A stretch of 36,529 nucleotides of DNA from a virus. Shown here one piece after another: positions 1-36,529 of the stretch. The notes below the pieces were generated by a model, which made no database searches, was not told where the DNA came from, and saw only the letters and a program-made list of their open reading frames with translations. The stretch lies in IMG/VR virus record IMGVR_UViG_3300025818_000007, positions 1 to 36,529 of that record; one strand, given 5' to 3'. The position numbers and the translations under genes are program-made. Each line of letters starts with the position of its first letter. Position 1 is the first letter of the stretch.

Positions 1-127
1 GTGAGACGATCTTCATGGGTATCTTGCGCGGCTCAGATGCAATCGTTCAAAAGAGCGGTAACGTCAAGGGGATGCCAACGGCGGCTCTTAACCTTGAGTT
101 TGGTGGCATGATCGCGGGTCAGTATGA
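1..127. repeat. Left copy of 127-bp terminal direct repeat (circular-contig overlap)
   Basis: These bases are identical to 36403-36529. The repeat lies inside the major capsid gene and the reading frame continues correctly across the join. An exact 127-base overlap is what a de Bruijn assembler using k=127 leaves on a circular or circularly permuted molecule, so it is most likely an assembly overlap and not a biological terminal repeat. Removing one copy leaves 36,402 bp. Confidence 0.95.
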
Positions 128-25306: not shown

Positions 25307-25483
25307 ATGAGCACATCTGACAAGACCGTATCAGCTCGCGTGAGCTCGCCGGAGCTCGCCAGGCTAGACAAGATCGCTGACAGTCTAGGGTGGTCGCGTT
25401 CTCAGTTGCTCAGGGAGATCATCTTCCGATTCATCTCTGATCACTCAACCTCATCAGCTATCAAGGAGCTTCTTAATGATTAA
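25307..25483 (+). CDS. Ribbon-helix-helix DNA-binding protein
   Basis: The frame continues upstream, but ATG 25307 after AAAGAGG gives a clean 58-residue protein. It has the ribbon-helix-helix (CopG/Arc) order: strand KTVSARVSSPE, helix ELARLDKIADSLG, turn WSRSQ, helix LLREIIFRFISDH. Proteins of this size bind palindromic operators as dimers, so the two 17-bp palindromes 360-420 bases upstream are natural candidate sites for autoregulation. No toxin gene is beside it, which argues against a toxin-antitoxin pair. Its end overlaps the SSB start by eight bases. Confidence 0.75.
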   Translation: MSTSDKTVSARVSSPELARLDKIADSLGWSRSQLLREIIFRFISDHSTSSAIKELLND

Positions 25484-25871
25484 TAAGGTGACCCTCATAG
25501 GCAACGTCGGACAGGATGCCGAGCTGCGCACTACTCAGAGCGGTCAACCGTTCGCCTATTTTCGGCTAGCCACCCACGAGAACTATCAGGACTCGAGAGG
25601 GCAGTGGCAGAAGTCCACCGAGTGGCACACCATCAAGGTCTGGGATAAGTCGAGCAATCGCGCCGCCTCTTCGATTCGCAAAGGGGCCAAGGTCTACATC
25701 GAGGGCCAACTCAAGAGCTTCAAAGGCCAGGGTGACAAAACACTTTGGGAAGTGCGCTGCACAACTTGGCGCTTGCTCGATAAAGAGCCTGATCCTCTCC
25801 TACCTCCTGAGCCACCCTCTAACAACATGCACACACCATCACAATGGGGTGAAGGGTTCACCCGCCGGTAA
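25476..25871 (+). CDS. ssb: Single-stranded DNA-binding protein
   Basis: The 131-residue protein has a full OB-fold N-terminal domain of the bacterial SSB family: MINKVTLIGNVGQDAELRTT, then FAYFRLATHENYQDSRGQWQ, then STEWHTIKVWDKSSNRAASS, and KGAKVYIEGQLKSFKG. It should coat single-stranded DNA during replication and annealing. The C-terminal part is short and Pro-rich and ends GEGFTRR, so the acidic DDDIPF-type tip used to recruit host repair and replication partners is absent. The gene overlaps the ribbon-helix-helix gene by eight bases. Confidence 0.93.
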   Translation: MINKVTLIGNVGQDAELRTTQSGQPFAYFRLATHENYQDSRGQWQKSTEWHTIKVWDKSSNRAASSIRKGAKVYIEGQLKSFKGQGDKTLWEVRCTTWRLLDKEPDPLLPPEPPSNNMHTPSQWGEGFTRR

Positions 25872-25879
25872 ACACCAAA

Positions 25880-25915
25880 CGAGTATTAATGCGCTCTCAT
25901 CAGAGAGAAAGTGAG
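25880..25915 (+). promoter_or_regulatory. Two-copy leader element, copy 1 (before the GHKL ATPase)
   Basis: The element reads CGAGTATTAATGCG, hairpin CTCTC-ATCA-GAGAG (25894-25907), then AAAGTGAG, ending five bases before ATG 25921. The same order occurs at 32214-32247 with a different but still paired stem. Here AAAGTGAG is also the only ribosome-site candidate, so a factor binding the hairpin could control translation. Confidence 0.65.
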
Positions 25916-25920
25916 ATTTT

Positions 25921-27897
25921 ATGAAATACACAACACTACCCATGATTGACAACAATCCAACCGCTTCTTTGGATCGCTCGTATCGAAACATGCACCCTCT
26001 CCAATACTGCCGAGAGATCTACTTCAACGCAGTTGAGGCGGGGGCCACCTTCGTGAGAGTTCGACCAGTCAATGGCATCAAGATGGCTTGGTGCGATGAT
26101 GGTCATGGGATGAACCCACAAGACCTTCTCAGGTTGATCAATGGCCGCAACTCCTCATCTAAGTCAGTCGAGGGTCATCATGGGAACTTTGGTATTGGCC
26201 TGAAAGACTCAGCGCTAACCCCCAATCCTTATGGCTTGGTCATCGTATCTAAGACAGCAGAGAAGCCGATGGGCGGCATGATCTGGCTACATCAGAGAGA
26301 TGGTGTGTCAGGCGCTCAGGTTCTCATCTCTGAAGAGATGCGCCGAGACTTCTGCTCAACTCCTGACCATGCTGATGACTTCGCCGCTGAGTATCTGCAG
26401 GATCTCTACTCAGTTGATTTTGAGTGGGTCCAGAATGAGTTTGGCCATGAGAGCTTCACGATTGATGGCGTTGATTGGATGCACCTCTTCAAGAAGTGCA
26501 GCGCCAACACCATCGTCGTCTTGATGGGTGAGTATGCAAACTCGGTGACTTTTGACACTGATGCTGCGAAGTTTCATAAATTCTTTGGAATGAAGTTGTC
26601 TCATATGCCTATCCGCATGTTGATACCTACTGTTAGTAATGATCGAGAGGCTCAGATAAAGTGGCAAAAAGTTAACACCTTATCTGAGTTGAGTTGTCCA
26701 AGCTTCAATCAGGAGTTCAAAGGCTTTAAGATCACAACGTATTTGAAACCGAAGACTTCAAAAAAAAATAGCAGAGATGCTGGTATCATGGATGGTAAAC
26801 GTTCTTTCATCAGCGGTATCAAATACAAAAATGAGATATTTGATTACACTGATACAAACGCAATGGCCAAACATTGGGGGCTATACTATGCTGAGGTGTA
26901 CAAGCGAGTGATCATCATGGTGGAGCCACCACTGATGGATGAAGATACAGGGATTGGATGCTATCCTGACAGCGAGCGTCAAAACCTTTTATACTCTGAT
27001 CCTCGCCTTAACATTATAAAGGCAAAAATCGAAGTAGTGCTTAATGAGGTTAAAGATTGGTATATCAACAATATGCCTGAGGAGCTGCGCCAGCTAATCA
27101 ATACAGAAGTCCAAAAGACATTAGAGCATGTCGAGAAATCAAAAAAGATCTCACAGTTCAGAAAGTTCTTTAAGGCTCCAAAGGTTGAGCGAGCTTCTCA
27201 GATTAATGTCTACGGTGACTTGTATATTTTGAACGAGTCAGGCAGTGACAACGCCACAGAAGGTTCAATCATCGATGATCTTTTCAAGCGACGTAATAAC
27301 CGTTTGAACCCACCACAACCATCAGCCAAAAAGGACAAGTCAGAAGCAGGTAATCCACAGAATAAGAGTGGTAAAAAAGGCGGGGATACTGCGGCGAATC
27401 GTCATGATGAAAGACCAAGCCCTAAAGATGCCTCTGTTGTCTTCGTCAATCCTCAAACTGAAGCTTGGCCAACTTATGAGTCCTTGGCTCAGTCTGAGAG
27501 AGGTGGCCTGTTCCCCTTTGTATATACCGGTATTCGGCGCGGTGATAATGTCAATGTGATCTATGTCAACACAGATTCATCAATCATCACAGCTCTTATC
27601 AGATCGGCGCTCGGTTGGGTCAACAAACGTGGTTCAGCCAAAATGGACATGTCAGAGTTGGAAGTCCTTGAGGCTCTTGTTAAGCCGTTCATCAGAGATT
27701 TTATGCCGGTGTCCCTGGCTCATCTAAACGGCGACAAAGACAAGATTAAGCTCGGTATCACCGTAACAGATCCGGTCGCCATCTATGCTATGTTTCATGG
27801 TACATGGCAGATTCACATGAATCTTCATGAGTATTATGAAGCGCACCGTAACCGTGTTTTATCTCCATCTGCTGAGGAAGATAATGAAAGAAACTAG
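25921..27897 (+). CDS. GHKL-type ATPase (Hsp90/MutL/MORC-like N-terminal domain), unknown role
   Basis: The 658-residue protein has the three nucleotide-binding motifs of the GHKL fold: the N box REIYFNAVEAGAT (Glu32 as general base, Asn36 for Mg2+), the G1 box CDDGHGM (Asp59, Gly61, Gly63), and the G2 box GNFGIGLKDSA (88-98). The spacing and the VEAGAT/DDGHGM wording are closest to MutL and MORC ATPases, not histidine kinases. Residues 200-400 may be the transducer domain, and about 445-510 is a Lys/Pro/Ser-rich linker (PPQPSAKKDKSEAGNPQNKS) before a C-terminal domain of about 150 residues I do not recognise. It may act as a DNA clamp or conformational switch in replication, repair or counter-defence. 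DNA from about 26540 to 27350 is visibly richer in A+T than the neighbours, hinting at separate origin. Confidence 0.82.
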   Translation: MKYTTLPMIDNNPTASLDRSYRNMHPLQYCREIYFNAVEAGATFVRVRPVNGIKMAWCDDGHGMNPQDLLRLINGRNSSSKSVEGHHGNFGIGLKDSALTPNPYGLVIVSKTAEKPMGGMIWLHQRDGVSGAQVLISEEMRRDFCSTPDHADDFAAEYLQDLYSVDFEWVQNEFGHESFTIDGVDWMHLFKKCSANTIVVLMGEYANSVTFDTDAAKFHKFFGMKLSHMPIRMLIPTVSNDREAQIKWQKVNTLSELSCPSFNQEFKGFKITTYLKPKTSKKNSRDAGIMDGKRSFISGIKYKNEIFDYTDTNAMAKHWGLYYAEVYKRVIIMVEPPLMDEDTGIGCYPDSERQNLLYSDPRLNIIKAKIEVVLNEVKDWYINNMPEELRQLINTEVQKTLEHVEKSKKISQFRKFFKAPKVERASQINVYGDLYILNESGSDNATEGSIIDDLFKRRNNRLNPPQPSAKKDKSEAGNPQNKSGKKGGDTAANRHDERPSPKDASVVFVNPQTEAWPTYESLAQSERGGLFPFVYTGIRRGDNVNVIYVNTDSSIITALIRSALGWVNKRGSAKMDMSELEVLEALVKPFIRDFMPVSLAHLNGDKDKIKLGITVTDPVAIYAMFHGTWQIHMNLHEYYEAHRNRVLSPSAEEDNERN

Positions 27898-28105
27898 ACA
27901 AACTAGACAAACAACGCGCGCGCGCGAGGCAGACTTTCATCGAATCATGAAAGAGCTTGATCGACTCTTGGTGTTGCGCCTCGAGGAACAACTTGACCTC
28001 AGTGACCCTGATGACCTCAATAAGTATAATGAGGCCAAAACTCTAAGAGATCACATCAGGGAGACTTTGAAGGATGCCAAAGCAGTCAACCAAACGAGAC
28101 GCTAA
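27884..28105 (+). CDS. Small charged helical protein, 73 residues
   Basis: The start ATG 27884 overlaps the ATPase stop by 14 bases and follows GAGGAAG; a longer frame from 27827 lies wholly inside the ATPase gene and is less likely. The product is very rich in Arg, Lys, Asp, Glu and Thr (MKETRQTRQTTRAREADF; RLLVLRLEEQLDLSDPDDLN) and should form one or two long helices. It overlaps the small terminase start by 32 bases. No family is recognised; it could be a partner of the ATPase or of the terminase. Confidence 0.5.
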   Translation: MKETRQTRQTTRAREADFHRIMKELDRLLVLRLEEQLDLSDPDDLNKYNEAKTLRDHIRETLKDAKAVNQTRR

Positions 28106-28508
28106 GCGCAAAGAGAAGCGCGAGAAGCTACTCGACAACCTGAGAACAGGGATGAGCGTTGAAGCCGCTTGTACCCAAAGCTCTATCAGTCGCGCCACTT
28201 ACTATCTATGGATAGAAGAGGATGAGGAGTTTGCTGAAGAGGTGGAGGCTGCCAAAGACTTCAGTGAGGCTGTCTTGCTCGAGTCCATCAGATATCAGGG
28301 CGAGGCTAAACAAGACTGGCGCGCAGCTGCTTGGATACTCGAGCGCCGCTTTCCTGATCGATGGGGCGCTAAACGAGAGGTCGACGTCAATGTCAACAAT
28401 ACCACCAACGAGACTGATGATATCATCATCAGCATGATCGAGCAGATCGCTAAGCCATATCAGGAGGTCACCGATGACACAGCAGACAGAGAAGAAGCAG
28501 ACGACTAG
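28074..28508 (+). CDS. terS: Terminase small subunit
   Basis: The 144-residue protein should recognise the packaging site and hand DNA to TerL. A basic N terminus (MPKQSTKRDAKRKEKREK) precedes a helix-turn-helix: LRTGMSVEAACTQSSISRAT, YYLWIEEDEEFAEEVEAAKD. The phrase DWRAAAWILERRFPDRWG (about residues 81-98) is common in this small-terminase class. The end is acidic (DDTADREEADD) as expected for oligomer and TerL contacts. It lies two genes before TerL. The unusual point is a 91-residue gene inserted between the two subunits, overlapping this gene by 35 bases. Confidence 0.8.
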   Translation: MPKQSTKRDAKRKEKREKLLDNLRTGMSVEAACTQSSISRATYYLWIEEDEEFAEEVEAAKDFSEAVLLESIRYQGEAKQDWRAAAWILERRFPDRWGAKREVDVNVNNTTNETDDIIISMIEQIAKPYQEVTDDTADREEADD

Positions 28509-28749
28509 GATCTACCTCAAGCGCTCGTGGTCGCGCTATGCCTCTCATGAGCGTGAGGATTATCAGATTCATGGATGGCATCGGCTCATCTGCTGTGAAG
28601 ACCTCAGTGAGCCTCATCTGACCATCTACCACGATAGCCTTGATGTGGTGGTGGGTGCTAAGGTGAGCGTGATTAAGGTGGGTCAAGATAAGGTCAGGAT
28701 CGAGGAGAGGTGGCGCGTGACCGACAGAGGGCTAAAGTTGGATGATTAG
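28474..28749 (+). CDS. Unknown protein between terS and terL, 91 residues
   Basis: This product has a charged N terminus (MTQQTEKKQTTRIYLKRSW) and a beta-rich remainder (HLTIYHDSLDVVVGAKVSVI; DKVRIEERWRVTDRGLKLDD). No family is recognised. It overlaps terS by 35 bases and terL by eight, so all three are probably translated together, which suggests an accessory packaging or packaging-regulating protein. A separate frame on the opposite strand here is a shadow. Confidence 0.5.
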   Translation: MTQQTEKKQTTRIYLKRSWSRYASHEREDYQIHGWHRLICCEDLSEPHLTIYHDSLDVVVGAKVSVIKVGQDKVRIEERWRVTDRGLKLDD

Positions 28750-30106
28750 GCTCAACGAGCTCCAGCATGGGATCATCTCTCGTATCGCTCGCAGTGAGAG
28801 AATCATAGCGGCGCGGTGTGGGTGGGGATCAGGTAAGACCTCGGCGCTTGTCTTCGCTCTGCTGTTCATCTCTCGATTTAGACCTGGCACCTCTAGCCTT
28901 CTCGTCACCGACACGAACCCACGCTATAACTCAGTATTGATGCCTGAGATGGAGAAGTGGCTGAGTAAGCTGGGGTGGACTTACAACCACACTCTAAGAC
29001 AGTGGTCAGCGCCTAATGGCTCAACTGTGTGGTGTCGCTCGTATTATAGGCCAGGGACGAGAGACGCCACCCATAACCCGCTCGAGGGGCTCAACATCAC
29101 CTCGGGTGTCTGCCTCATCGATGAGTGTCAGACGCTCTCAGCAGAGGTGGCTCATAAGGCGATGGGTCGATTGAGAGCGGGGCCGAGCCCCATCATGATC
29201 CTTGTGGGTCTGCCGGTGTCCGGCGCTTGGTGGTGTCAGCTAGCAGAGGAGGCGAGCTGTCAACCTCTCCTGTTTACCTCATACGTGAACGCAGCCAACC
29301 TCTCCTCGGAATGGTTCGAGGCCACTAAGCTTCTGCCTCAGGCTGAGCGTGAGGCTATGGTGATGAACAAGCCAAGGCCACCCTCAGGGCTCATCTATTC
29401 TGAGTTCGATGAGTCGCGCCACGTTATCAGCGGTTGGAAGTATAAGCCGACCATGAGTGGGCGTATCGCCATTGACTGGGGATTCAGGAAACCATCGGTG
29501 TTGATTATCGTGCATGATGATGAACTTGGCGCCGATGTGATCTGCGCTGAGATCAACCCACAAGAGGTGACCACCTCTCAACTAGCCACCCTCATCTTAG
29601 CTGTGGCGTGGCCGCGCTCGTTGAGGAGCTCCGCACCAGCTGAGAGGATATGGCTAGATAATGGGGTAGCTGACAAGGCGGGGCGAGCGCGAAATGATCA
29701 GACGGGGCGCTCAGCCTTCCGAGCAATGAGAGGGAATCCACCTCATGGGCTCGGCTTACCTCTGAGGTCGAACACTGACCCCATCAGGACAGATATCTTA
29801 AATGGGATTCAGCGATTGAAGAGGGCCTTTGCTCGAGGTCAATATCTGATCACTCGTGAAGTGTGGGATGCAGGCGAGCGCGCTCTTGGGAACTCAATCA
29901 GGAAGGCGATCATGAGCTATGGATGGGACAACAAAGAGCAGCCAAAGAAGGATGGGAGAGAGGACCCTCTTGACGCCTTGAGATATGACTGCATAACGTG
30001 GAACTGGTCTGACTCGCTAGTCGATCAGCGCAATTATCAACCACGAGCGACAGCCCCCAAGGACCGCCGAGTCAAGGTAGGCGGCGCTAAGACAAGAGGC
30101 TTCTAA
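28742..30106 (+). CDS. terL: Terminase large subunit
   Basis: The 454-residue packaging motor cuts DNA and pumps it into the capsid. Residues 27-34 are the Walker A (GWGSGKTS), residues 123-128 the Walker B with catalytic Glu (VCLIDE). The nuclease domain shows RIAIDWGFRKPSVLII (Asp near residue 246) and the closing motif REDPLDALRYDCITW near residue 415. Length is typical. A Lys/Arg-rich end (RRVKVGGAKTRGF) may reach the portal. Its stop overlaps the thyX ATG by one base. Packaging type (cos or headful) cannot be told from this sequence. Confidence 0.93.
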   Translation: MIRLNELQHGIISRIARSERIIAARCGWGSGKTSALVFALLFISRFRPGTSSLLVTDTNPRYNSVLMPEMEKWLSKLGWTYNHTLRQWSAPNGSTVWCRSYYRPGTRDATHNPLEGLNITSGVCLIDECQTLSAEVAHKAMGRLRAGPSPIMILVGLPVSGAWWCQLAEEASCQPLLFTSYVNAANLSSEWFEATKLLPQAEREAMVMNKPRPPSGLIYSEFDESRHVISGWKYKPTMSGRIAIDWGFRKPSVLIIVHDDELGADVICAEINPQEVTTSQLATLILAVAWPRSLRSSAPAERIWLDNGVADKAGRARNDQTGRSAFRAMRGNPPHGLGLPLRSNTDPIRTDILNGIQRLKRAFARGQYLITREVWDAGERALGNSIRKAIMSYGWDNKEQPKKDGREDPLDALRYDCITWNWSDSLVDQRNYQPRATAPKDRRVKVGGAKTRGF

Positions 30107-35633: not shown

Positions 35634-36529
35634 ATGGCTAGTTCATACAGCAATCTGCATCCAGTCGACCAAATCCTATCTAACCTCGTCGTTGAGGCTG
35701 TCCCAAGTGATGATCAGTTGATCGCTGATAAGGTCTTTGAGAGCATCAAGGTTCCTGAGCGATCAGGCACCATCTTGCTTGAGGAGACTCGGAACTTCAT
35801 GGGCGCTGGCGCGGGTCTTGACCTCGAGCGCGCACCAGGGAGCTCACGCACCAACATCGGTGGATTCGACCGAAGCTCAACCACCTTCAAGGCGTTGATC
35901 TACGCGGCTCAAGACTCCATCGCTATGGAAGACATCTTTGACTCTCAGTATCCAGGGAGCGAAGAAGCACGCATCGCAAAGAAGGTTGCACGAGTGATGA
36001 AGCTCGCTAAAGAGAAGCGCGCCGCTGATCTTCTCTTCAGTACCTCGCTCTTTGCAGGCTATACCTCAGCGCCAGCTACTAAGTTTGACGCTACAGGCGC
36101 TGAGCCTCTCACCACCTTGCACAGCCTCAAGGATACCGTTTATCAAAACGCTCATGGGATCAACCCTGACACCATGATCTTAGGTCGCGACGTCTTCCGC
36201 GCTCTTGCTCGTAACCCTGAGGTTCGTGGCTATGTTGGAGACAGCTCTAGTGGGATTGCTTCAGGTAATCGCATCTTGGCAGATGAGGCGGTTCTCTCTG
36301 TACTTCGTGATGTGCTCGGTATCCCCAACATCATGGTAGGTGCTGCGCTTCAAGACACCGCTGTCCCTGGCGCGGCTAGCTCTGAGGCTTACATCTGGGA
36401 TCGTGAGACGATCTTCATGGGTATCTTGCGCGGCTCAGATGCAATCGTTCAAAAGAGCGGTAACGTCAAGGGGATGCCAACGGCGGCTCTTAACCTTGAG
36501 TTTGGTGGCATGATCGCGGGTCAGTATGA
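35634..36529 (+). CDS. Major capsid protein, N-terminal part (continues at 1-230)
   Basis: The frame is open to the window end and continues at base 128 after the terminal repeat, giving 332 residues. It starts MASSYSNLHPVDQILSNLVV, then has PERSGTILLEETRNFMGAGA, AARIAKK-like helix phrases (EEARIAKKVARVMKLAKEKR), and GINPDTMILGRDVFRALARN, IPNIMVGAALQDTAV and AYIWDRETIFMGILRG, all usual in HK97-fold capsid proteins of the Mu/lambda-E-like group (spine helix, P-domain, A-domain). Strong AAGGAG ribosome site, preceded by decoration gene, which fits high expression. The split at the window ends is an artefact of where the circle was cut. Confidence 0.9.
   Translation, partial: MASSYSNLHPVDQILSNLVVEAVPSDDQLIADKVFESIKVPERSGTILLEETRNFMGAGAGLDLERAPGSSRTNIGGFDRSSTTFKALIYAAQDSIAMEDIFDSQYPGSEEARIAKKVARVMKLAKEKRAADLLFSTSLFAGYTSAPATKFDATGAEPLTTLHSLKDTVYQNAHGINPDTMILGRDVFRALARNPEVRGYVGDSSSGIASGNRILADEAVLSVLRDVLGIPNIMVGAALQDTAVPGAASSEAYIWDRETIFMGILRGSDAIVQKSGNVKGMPTAALNLEFGGMIAGQY
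36403..36529. repeat. Right copy of 127-bp terminal direct repeat
   Basis: This copy is identical to 1-127. See the left copy for interpretation: the overlap shows that the contig closes into a 36,402-bp circle or comes from a circularly permuted population of linear molecules. Confidence 0.95.

Follow-up and report, generated by a model that had tools for sequence, protein, structure and literature searches.

A paraMORC-like GHKL ATPase carried as an exchangeable cassette, with a possible role in conflict, in an uncultured phage group

The gene at positions 25921..27897 of virus record IMGVR_UViG_3300025818_000007 (the window: the whole 36,529-nucleotide stretch analysed) encodes a 658-residue protein with the ATP-binding motifs of the GHKL superfamily. 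The gene is an accessory, exchangeable single-gene cassette, carried between the genes for the single-strand DNA-binding protein (SSB) and the terminase small subunit (TerS) by some members of one large uncultured phage group. By sequence kinship, its product belongs to an unnamed paraMORC-like family spread across bacteria, plasmids and this phage group. At roughly even odds (about 0.5), the protein is an ATP-gated, paraMORC-like DNA clamp that serves as a swappable conflict cassette, either for counter-defence or for phage-phage exclusion. The gene and its parts are as follows.

25921..27897, + strand: GHKL-S5 ATPase gene, 658 residues, ATG start, single-gene cassette (open reading frame, Pfam, relatives, selection)
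25978..26340, + strand: GHKL (Bergerat) domain, about residues 20-140 (Pfam HATPase_c_3 at residues 32-100; invariant residues; model)
26509..27030, + strand: residues 197-370, with a TxVxLxG strand (G3-like, T197 and G203 invariant) and the S5/transducer region (alignment, model, fold matches)
27031..27168, + strand: helices after the S5 region, residues 371-416 (model; second matched stretch of the bacterial profile)
27169..27459, + strand: low-confidence, fast-evolving Lys/Ser-rich linker, residues 417-513 (model confidence below 50 over residues 412-513)
27460..27870, + strand: C-terminal alpha/beta-helical domain, residues 514-650, with P517 and the strand motif (I/L/V)xVN550 (alignment)
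26540..27350, no strand: AT-rich stretch inside the gene (GC count)

An earlier note, made by a model from the letters alone, had described a MutL/MORC-like GHKL ATPase with all three motifs intact, and on both counts it has held up. The N box (residues 32-36, Glu32/Asn36), G1 (DDGHGM, 59-64) and G2 (GNFGIGLK, 88-95) are complete, and nine residues within or beside them (R31, E32, N36, G61, G63, N89, G91, G93, and K95) are invariant in all 69 aligned family members. So are T197, G203, T210, E305, G320, R353, P517, and N550; R353 is proposed to be the basic finger of the S5 region. No nuclease motif was recognised in the C-terminal domain. Copies in IMG/VR fall at three levels of identity (84-100%, 59-61%, and 26-37%), and the ratio of nonsynonymous to synonymous substitution (dN/dS) against relatives of 85% identity is about 0.20, indicating purifying selection. 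The open reading frame is therefore a real gene. Between close relatives, dN/dS is 0.05-0.11 over residues 1-235, about 0.25 in the linker, and 0.12-0.16 over residues 511-650.

The predicted fold agrees with the motifs. AlphaFold2 confidence (predicted local distance difference test, pLDDT) rose from 32 with 6 close relatives to 68 with 69 sequences, and the latter model is good over most of residues 21-140 and 190-410. The modelled GHKL domain mostly scores 72-91, with a weak stretch at residues 71-90; residues 197-410 mostly score 80-95 and adopt the S5/transducer fold expected after a GHKL domain. A Foldseek search of the PDB placed MORC2 with DNA at the top (3.5e-9), followed by GRP94, HtpG, Hsp90, MutL, and GyrB. 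These matches are at the level of the superfamily, and they support a MutL/MORC-like GHKL-S5 ATPase.

Membership of a known, characterised phage family, which the earlier note had set against its own interpretation, was not found. The protein has no PHROG family and no PADLOC family (the sole PADLOC line scored 9.6 bits); Pfam gave nothing beyond the generic HATPase family, with HATPase_c_3 passing its cut-off (27.5 versus 25 bits); and NCBIfam gave sub-threshold matches only, among them a sacsin-type ATP-binding domain (7.5e-4). A tblastn search of 50,697 phage records returned no relative at E 0.001. The best non-viral match is a Caballeronia plasmid gene (tblastn 2e-3; hhalign 96% over 341 columns). 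From this gene a large bacterial family was reached, with relatives encoded in 105 of 113 pattern matches in GTDB genomes, and with members in Acidobacteriota, Planctomycetota, Verrucomicrobiota, Pseudomonadota and others.

This kinship was recovered with a profile built from 78 bacterial members and zero phage sequences. It scores window-type phage proteins at 91-109 bits (the window protein at 97) over two stretches, the GHKL domain and the S5/helix region. The same profile gives HtpG 26 bits, and does not detect MutL or T4 rIIA. Homology between the phage and bacterial C-terminal domains is weak when tested alone (hhalign P 0.005) and rests on the collinear alignment. In the trees, the phage proteins resembling that of the window (15 of them in the larger version) form a single clade (support 1.0) on a long branch. 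The clade is old and deep. Its sister is a Bacteroidetes protein encoded beside a DNA methyltransferase gene (support 0.94), a tentative placement because this quick tree flags possible long-branch attraction.

More distant family members occur on further contigs of the viral collection (L106-L110, L112; one listed at 338 kb), some of which may be plasmids or prophages. The record MT837238, labelled 'Bacteriophage sp.' (L024, 7.4 kb), was rejected as a phage relative: the matched gene encodes HtpG and lies next to a ClpC-like gene, and the record is most likely bacterial DNA.

How does the family relate to named GHKL proteins? The closest comparison is with the paraMORCs, prokaryotic MORC-like ATPases of restriction-modification systems (Iyer et al. 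2008, PMC2292703), which share the arrangement of GHKL domain, S5 domain and C-terminal extension. Both groups are sporadic and mobile in distribution, and some bacterial relatives of the window protein adjoin Dcm/Vsr genes, other methyltransferases or defence genes. The window protein differs in being encoded by a phage-borne lone cassette and in having neither the MORC motif at the published spacing nor the signatures of paraMORC2, 3, and 5. Specifically, MORC proper carries GhXhhpXXRhl in the S5 domain (PMC2292703); the window protein has GLYYAEVYKRV, one residue too long, and 29 of the 69 members have the Arg. No invariant or near-invariant His corresponding to the paraMORC2 ExxxH is found in the family alignment. 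The C-terminal PD-(D/E)xK domain of paraMORC3 (GHKL-Shedu) has no counterpart, in that no nuclease was matched and the phage-clade C-terminal part has no catalytic-type invariant residues. No TIR domain, fused or neighbouring as in paraMORC4, was matched in the window protein or the scanned neighbours, and the window protein has no HxH of the paraMORC5 type.

MutL shares the architecture of GHKL, S5 and C-terminal domains; it is set aside by the bacterial-only profile, by the missing DQHA(X)2E(X)4E motif, and by an NCBIfam mutl score of 14 bits against a cut-off of 180. No Toprim domain, as in type IIA topoisomerases, was matched in the window protein. On these motif and profile comparisons, the bacterial family is not MORC proper, MutL, or rIIA. 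Two further systems are instructive. Human MORC2 (PMC12216690; PDB 9cdh/9cdj), the best PDB fold match, is an ATP-driven DNA clamp that compacts DNA; identity is 12-16%, the spacing of the MORC motif differs, and the human-specific chromatin domains are not expected in a phage protein. VcSduA, a GHKL-Shedu/paraMORC3 protein (PMC12137116), is a GHKL ATPase acting in phage conflict, with a predicted dimer and a clamp-like middle domain, but carries a PD-(D/E)xK nuclease domain of which none is recognisable in the window protein.

The bacterial gene neighbourhoods agree with what Iyer et al. described for paraMORCs (PMC2292703). A Dinoroseobacter plasmid member adjoins a Gabija pair (GajA, 2.9e-220; GajB, 1.1e-178), and an Agrobacterium member adjoins genes homologous to these. 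On these alphaproteobacterial plasmids the Gabija pair follows the family member (L021:7830-14330; L023:5986-11048), with an unknown gene between them in L021. Named by sequence motif, a Dcm-type methyltransferase and a Vsr-like gene lie directly upstream in three loci (L043, L045, L046); L044 has the Dcm-type methyltransferase, with a Vsr-like gene nearby; and a TSPPY/TSPPF DNA methyltransferase adjoins the family gene in L058, L060, and L063. Plasmid-like loci add conjugation, relaxase, ArdC and Toprim-type neighbours. In 24 loci (L021, L022, L023, and others of L061-L104) a conserved 76-residue gene stands just upstream of the ATPase gene, mostly by 9-19 nucleotides. Its product has the pattern KREKF..LAE.R...A...I..IGNLSN... 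and no Pfam family above cut-off.

In the phages, the gene occupies a defined place. Its surroundings in the window, which also encodes a RecT-like annealing protein, an O-like initiator, a DnaC-like helicase loader, ThyX, a portal and a head maturation protease, include the following features.

25476..25871, + strand: SSB, left border of the slot (Pfam SSB 4.9e-26; left border in 48 intervals)
25872..25917, + strand: conserved leader from the SSB stop to the start of the following cassette (near-identical in the window, L003, L007, L128, L129, and L131)
27884..28105, + strand: 73-residue charged gene at the slot's right border (alleles follow TerS rather than the ATPase)
28074..28508, + strand: TerS (PHROG 4102, 2.5e-25)
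28742..30106, + strand: terminase large subunit, the ATPase-blind seed of the scan (PHROG 5653, 1.5e-5)
1..127, + strand: exact direct terminal repeat, copy 1, 127 bp (sequence identity)
36403..36529, + strand: exact direct terminal repeat, copy 2, 127 bp (sequence identity; L018 across the junction)

Because of the exact terminal repeat, and because another contig (L018) spans its junction, the window record most probably represents a whole genome of about 36.4 kb. The window terminase has just seven distant matches among phage records, and to the extent of the searched collections the group is therefore uncultured.

Contigs retrieved through the ATPase itself, with the order SSB, ATPase and, further on, TerS, suggested a core replication gene. 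That sample is biased, so the terminase was taken as a blind seed. Relatives of the terminase are encoded on 448 stretches in IMG/VR, of which the best 80 loci were kept; 48 contigs show both SSB and TerS, some being near-duplicates, so that these are not 48 independent cases. The ATPase is present in 10 of these intervals and absent from 38 with SSB still in place, and the core-gene view was rejected. Moreover, it was found nowhere in 12 of 14 further records of the group, several of which are fragments. The suspicion in the earlier note that a large GHKL ATPase is no standard part of such phages is thus borne out, as is its naming of the two neighbours, SSB and a small charged protein.

The slot (window 25872-27883 and L128-L198), between SSB and the 73-residue gene/TerS, holds varied occupants. 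Nine intervals, of 82-233 bp, are empty or contain a small border gene alone. HNH genes are found in L128, L139, and L189 (Pfam HNH_5 7e-7 for L139 and 3e-8 for L189, sub-threshold for L128), and GIY-YIG-like genes in L129, L164, and L144 (Pfam SegE 0.034 for L129). Long proteins with an ExK motif, which may be PD-(D/E)xK nucleases, occupy L136, L159, L165, L173, L175, L179, L180, and L181. Small genes of no assigned type occupy other slots. Exchange is evident among contigs with 97% identical terminase: L003 and L007 carry the ATPase, L128 an HNH gene, L129 and L164 a GIY-YIG-like gene, whereas the slot of L130 and L131 is empty. Different cassettes are preceded by almost the same sequence between the SSB stop and their start. 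Separately, small genes of repeated 'ETPEQREKRLA..REY.R..RA' units lie in or near the slot of L154, L159, L165, L168, L111, L115, and L170.

The tie between the ATPase and the 73-residue gene that the earlier note had proposed to check by co-occurrence does not survive. The 73-residue gene is present in empty-slot phages lacking the ATPase. One contig (L003) joins the window's ATPase allele (100%) to a divergent 73-residue gene (40%) and TerS (80%), and another (L005) joins the window's 73-residue gene (100%) and TerS (98%) to a divergent ATPase (85%). The 73-residue gene therefore travels with TerS, and was rejected as a partner of the ATPase. A recombination breakpoint lies at the border of the two genes (window 27880-28500, L003, L005), leaving SSB plus ATPase and 73-residue gene plus TerS as separate allele blocks. 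The 76-residue gene of the alphaproteobacterial loci, compared by eye only, shows no clear similarity to the 73-residue phage gene.

The AT-rich stretch that the same note reported is real: G+C content over 26540-27350 is 40.7% against a window mean of 51.5% (standard deviation 3.1), which puts the stretch in the bottom 0.25% of segments of equal length. Recent acquisition, as a reading of this composition, was rejected. Relatives of the ATPase and most other slot occupants share the AT-richness, cassettes being AT-richer than their own contigs in 21 of 22 cases (by a mean of 6.4 points), and so the composition is no mark of recent acquisition by the window phage; the phage clade, moreover, is old.

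Motifs, kinship, accessory status, slot and selection are established by the sequence comparisons, whereas a dimeric clamp, DNA as its substrate and a role in conflict are what we infer. If the protein works as MutL and MORC do, ATP binding would pair two subunits at their GHKL domains and shut them around DNA. The clamp would open again on hydrolysis, in which the invariant S5-region residue Arg353 would assist. Since no nuclease can be recognised in the protein itself, such a clamp would either occupy, loop or compact DNA or direct a nuclease that the host or a rival provides. Conflict between phage and host or between phages is its likeliest use because the other occupants of the exchange slot include nucleases; counter-defence, raised as a possibility in the earlier note, is supported as such, and the data favour neither it nor exclusion of rivals. 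The pairing of GHKL and nuclease in defence has precedent in VcSduA (PMC12137116) and in the paraMORCs of restriction-modification systems (PMC2292703), and MORC2 is an ATP-driven DNA clamp (PMC12216690).

Several observations weigh against this reading. The bacterial distribution is wide and mixed, and many loci have ordinary or unclassified neighbours rather than defence contexts. A long branch connects the phage clade to the rest of the tree, leaving its exact placement uncertain. The PD-(D/E)xK reading of several alternative cassettes is by motif only, Pfam and PDB searches having given no match; and the HNH and GIY-YIG genes may be homing endonucleases of a selfish kind, which would mean that the slot serves more than conflict. 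Finally, the fast divergence of the ATPase is common to the replication genes around it.

Four other explanations were weighed. The protein may, as a distinct possibility short of an even chance, act in counter-defence in the manner of T4 rIIA, neutralising an abortive or membrane-linked host defence; T4 rIIA is likewise a GHKL ATPase from a phage, comparable in size and variable in its C-terminal part. The fold search of viral models (BFVD) returned many RIIA proteins, with viral topoisomerases among the others, and the window ATPase is accessory and fast evolving. Yet the hhalign similarity covers only about 97 columns of the generic GHKL core, T4 rIIA matches 2864 phage records whereas the window protein matches none, the bacterial-only profile misses T4 rIIA, and no rIIB partner was seen in what is a different genome setting. 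Membership of the rIIA family was rejected on the sequence comparisons.

Somewhat less probable, and on balance unlikely, is a phage-borne exclusion gene: in a co-infected cell the ATPase would interfere with the DNA of rival phages, much as the nucleases found in this slot might do. Alternation with HNH, GIY-YIG-like and putative PD-(D/E)xK genes argues for it, as do the Gabija and methyltransferase/Vsr neighbours of some bacterial relatives; no nuclease motif was recognised in the ATPase, none is encoded beside it in the window, and no rule for telling self from non-self is known.

An auxiliary replication or repair factor, MutL- or topoisomerase-like and working with SSB, RecT and the helicase loader, is improbable. 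SSB is the left neighbour wherever the ATPase is found in the phage group, their alleles co-segregate, and the replication module adjoins. However, the ATPase is dispensable where SSB persists, and it has neither a MutL endonuclease motif nor a Toprim domain match; the SSB neighbour comes with the slot, for other cassettes follow the same SSB. An Hsp90-like chaperone for virion or replication proteins, suggested by the HtpG and GRP94 fold matches and the weak HtpG profile score, is very improbable, given that the GHKL and S5 regions are common to the whole superfamily, that kinship lies with the unnamed bacterial family, and that phages with near-identical terminase lack the gene.

If the clamp reading is right, the window gene could represent a new kind of phage conflict system, a nuclease-free paraMORC-like DNA-clamp ATPase acting alone, with the SSB-terminase exchange slot as a library of interchangeable weapons or shields for a large uncultured phage group; this broader proposal is put forward tentatively, as somewhat less probable than the clamp itself. 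The window gene links GHKL-S5 ATPases of bacterial restriction-modification and defence loci, their plasmid-borne relatives and phage accessory slots, which are usually studied separately. With it, a family that has no annotated function gains a phage member that is a single gene and open to testing. Moreover, the mapped slot lets other unknown conflict genes be read off in an abundant phage group, given the number of stretches in IMG/VR that encode a relative of its terminase.
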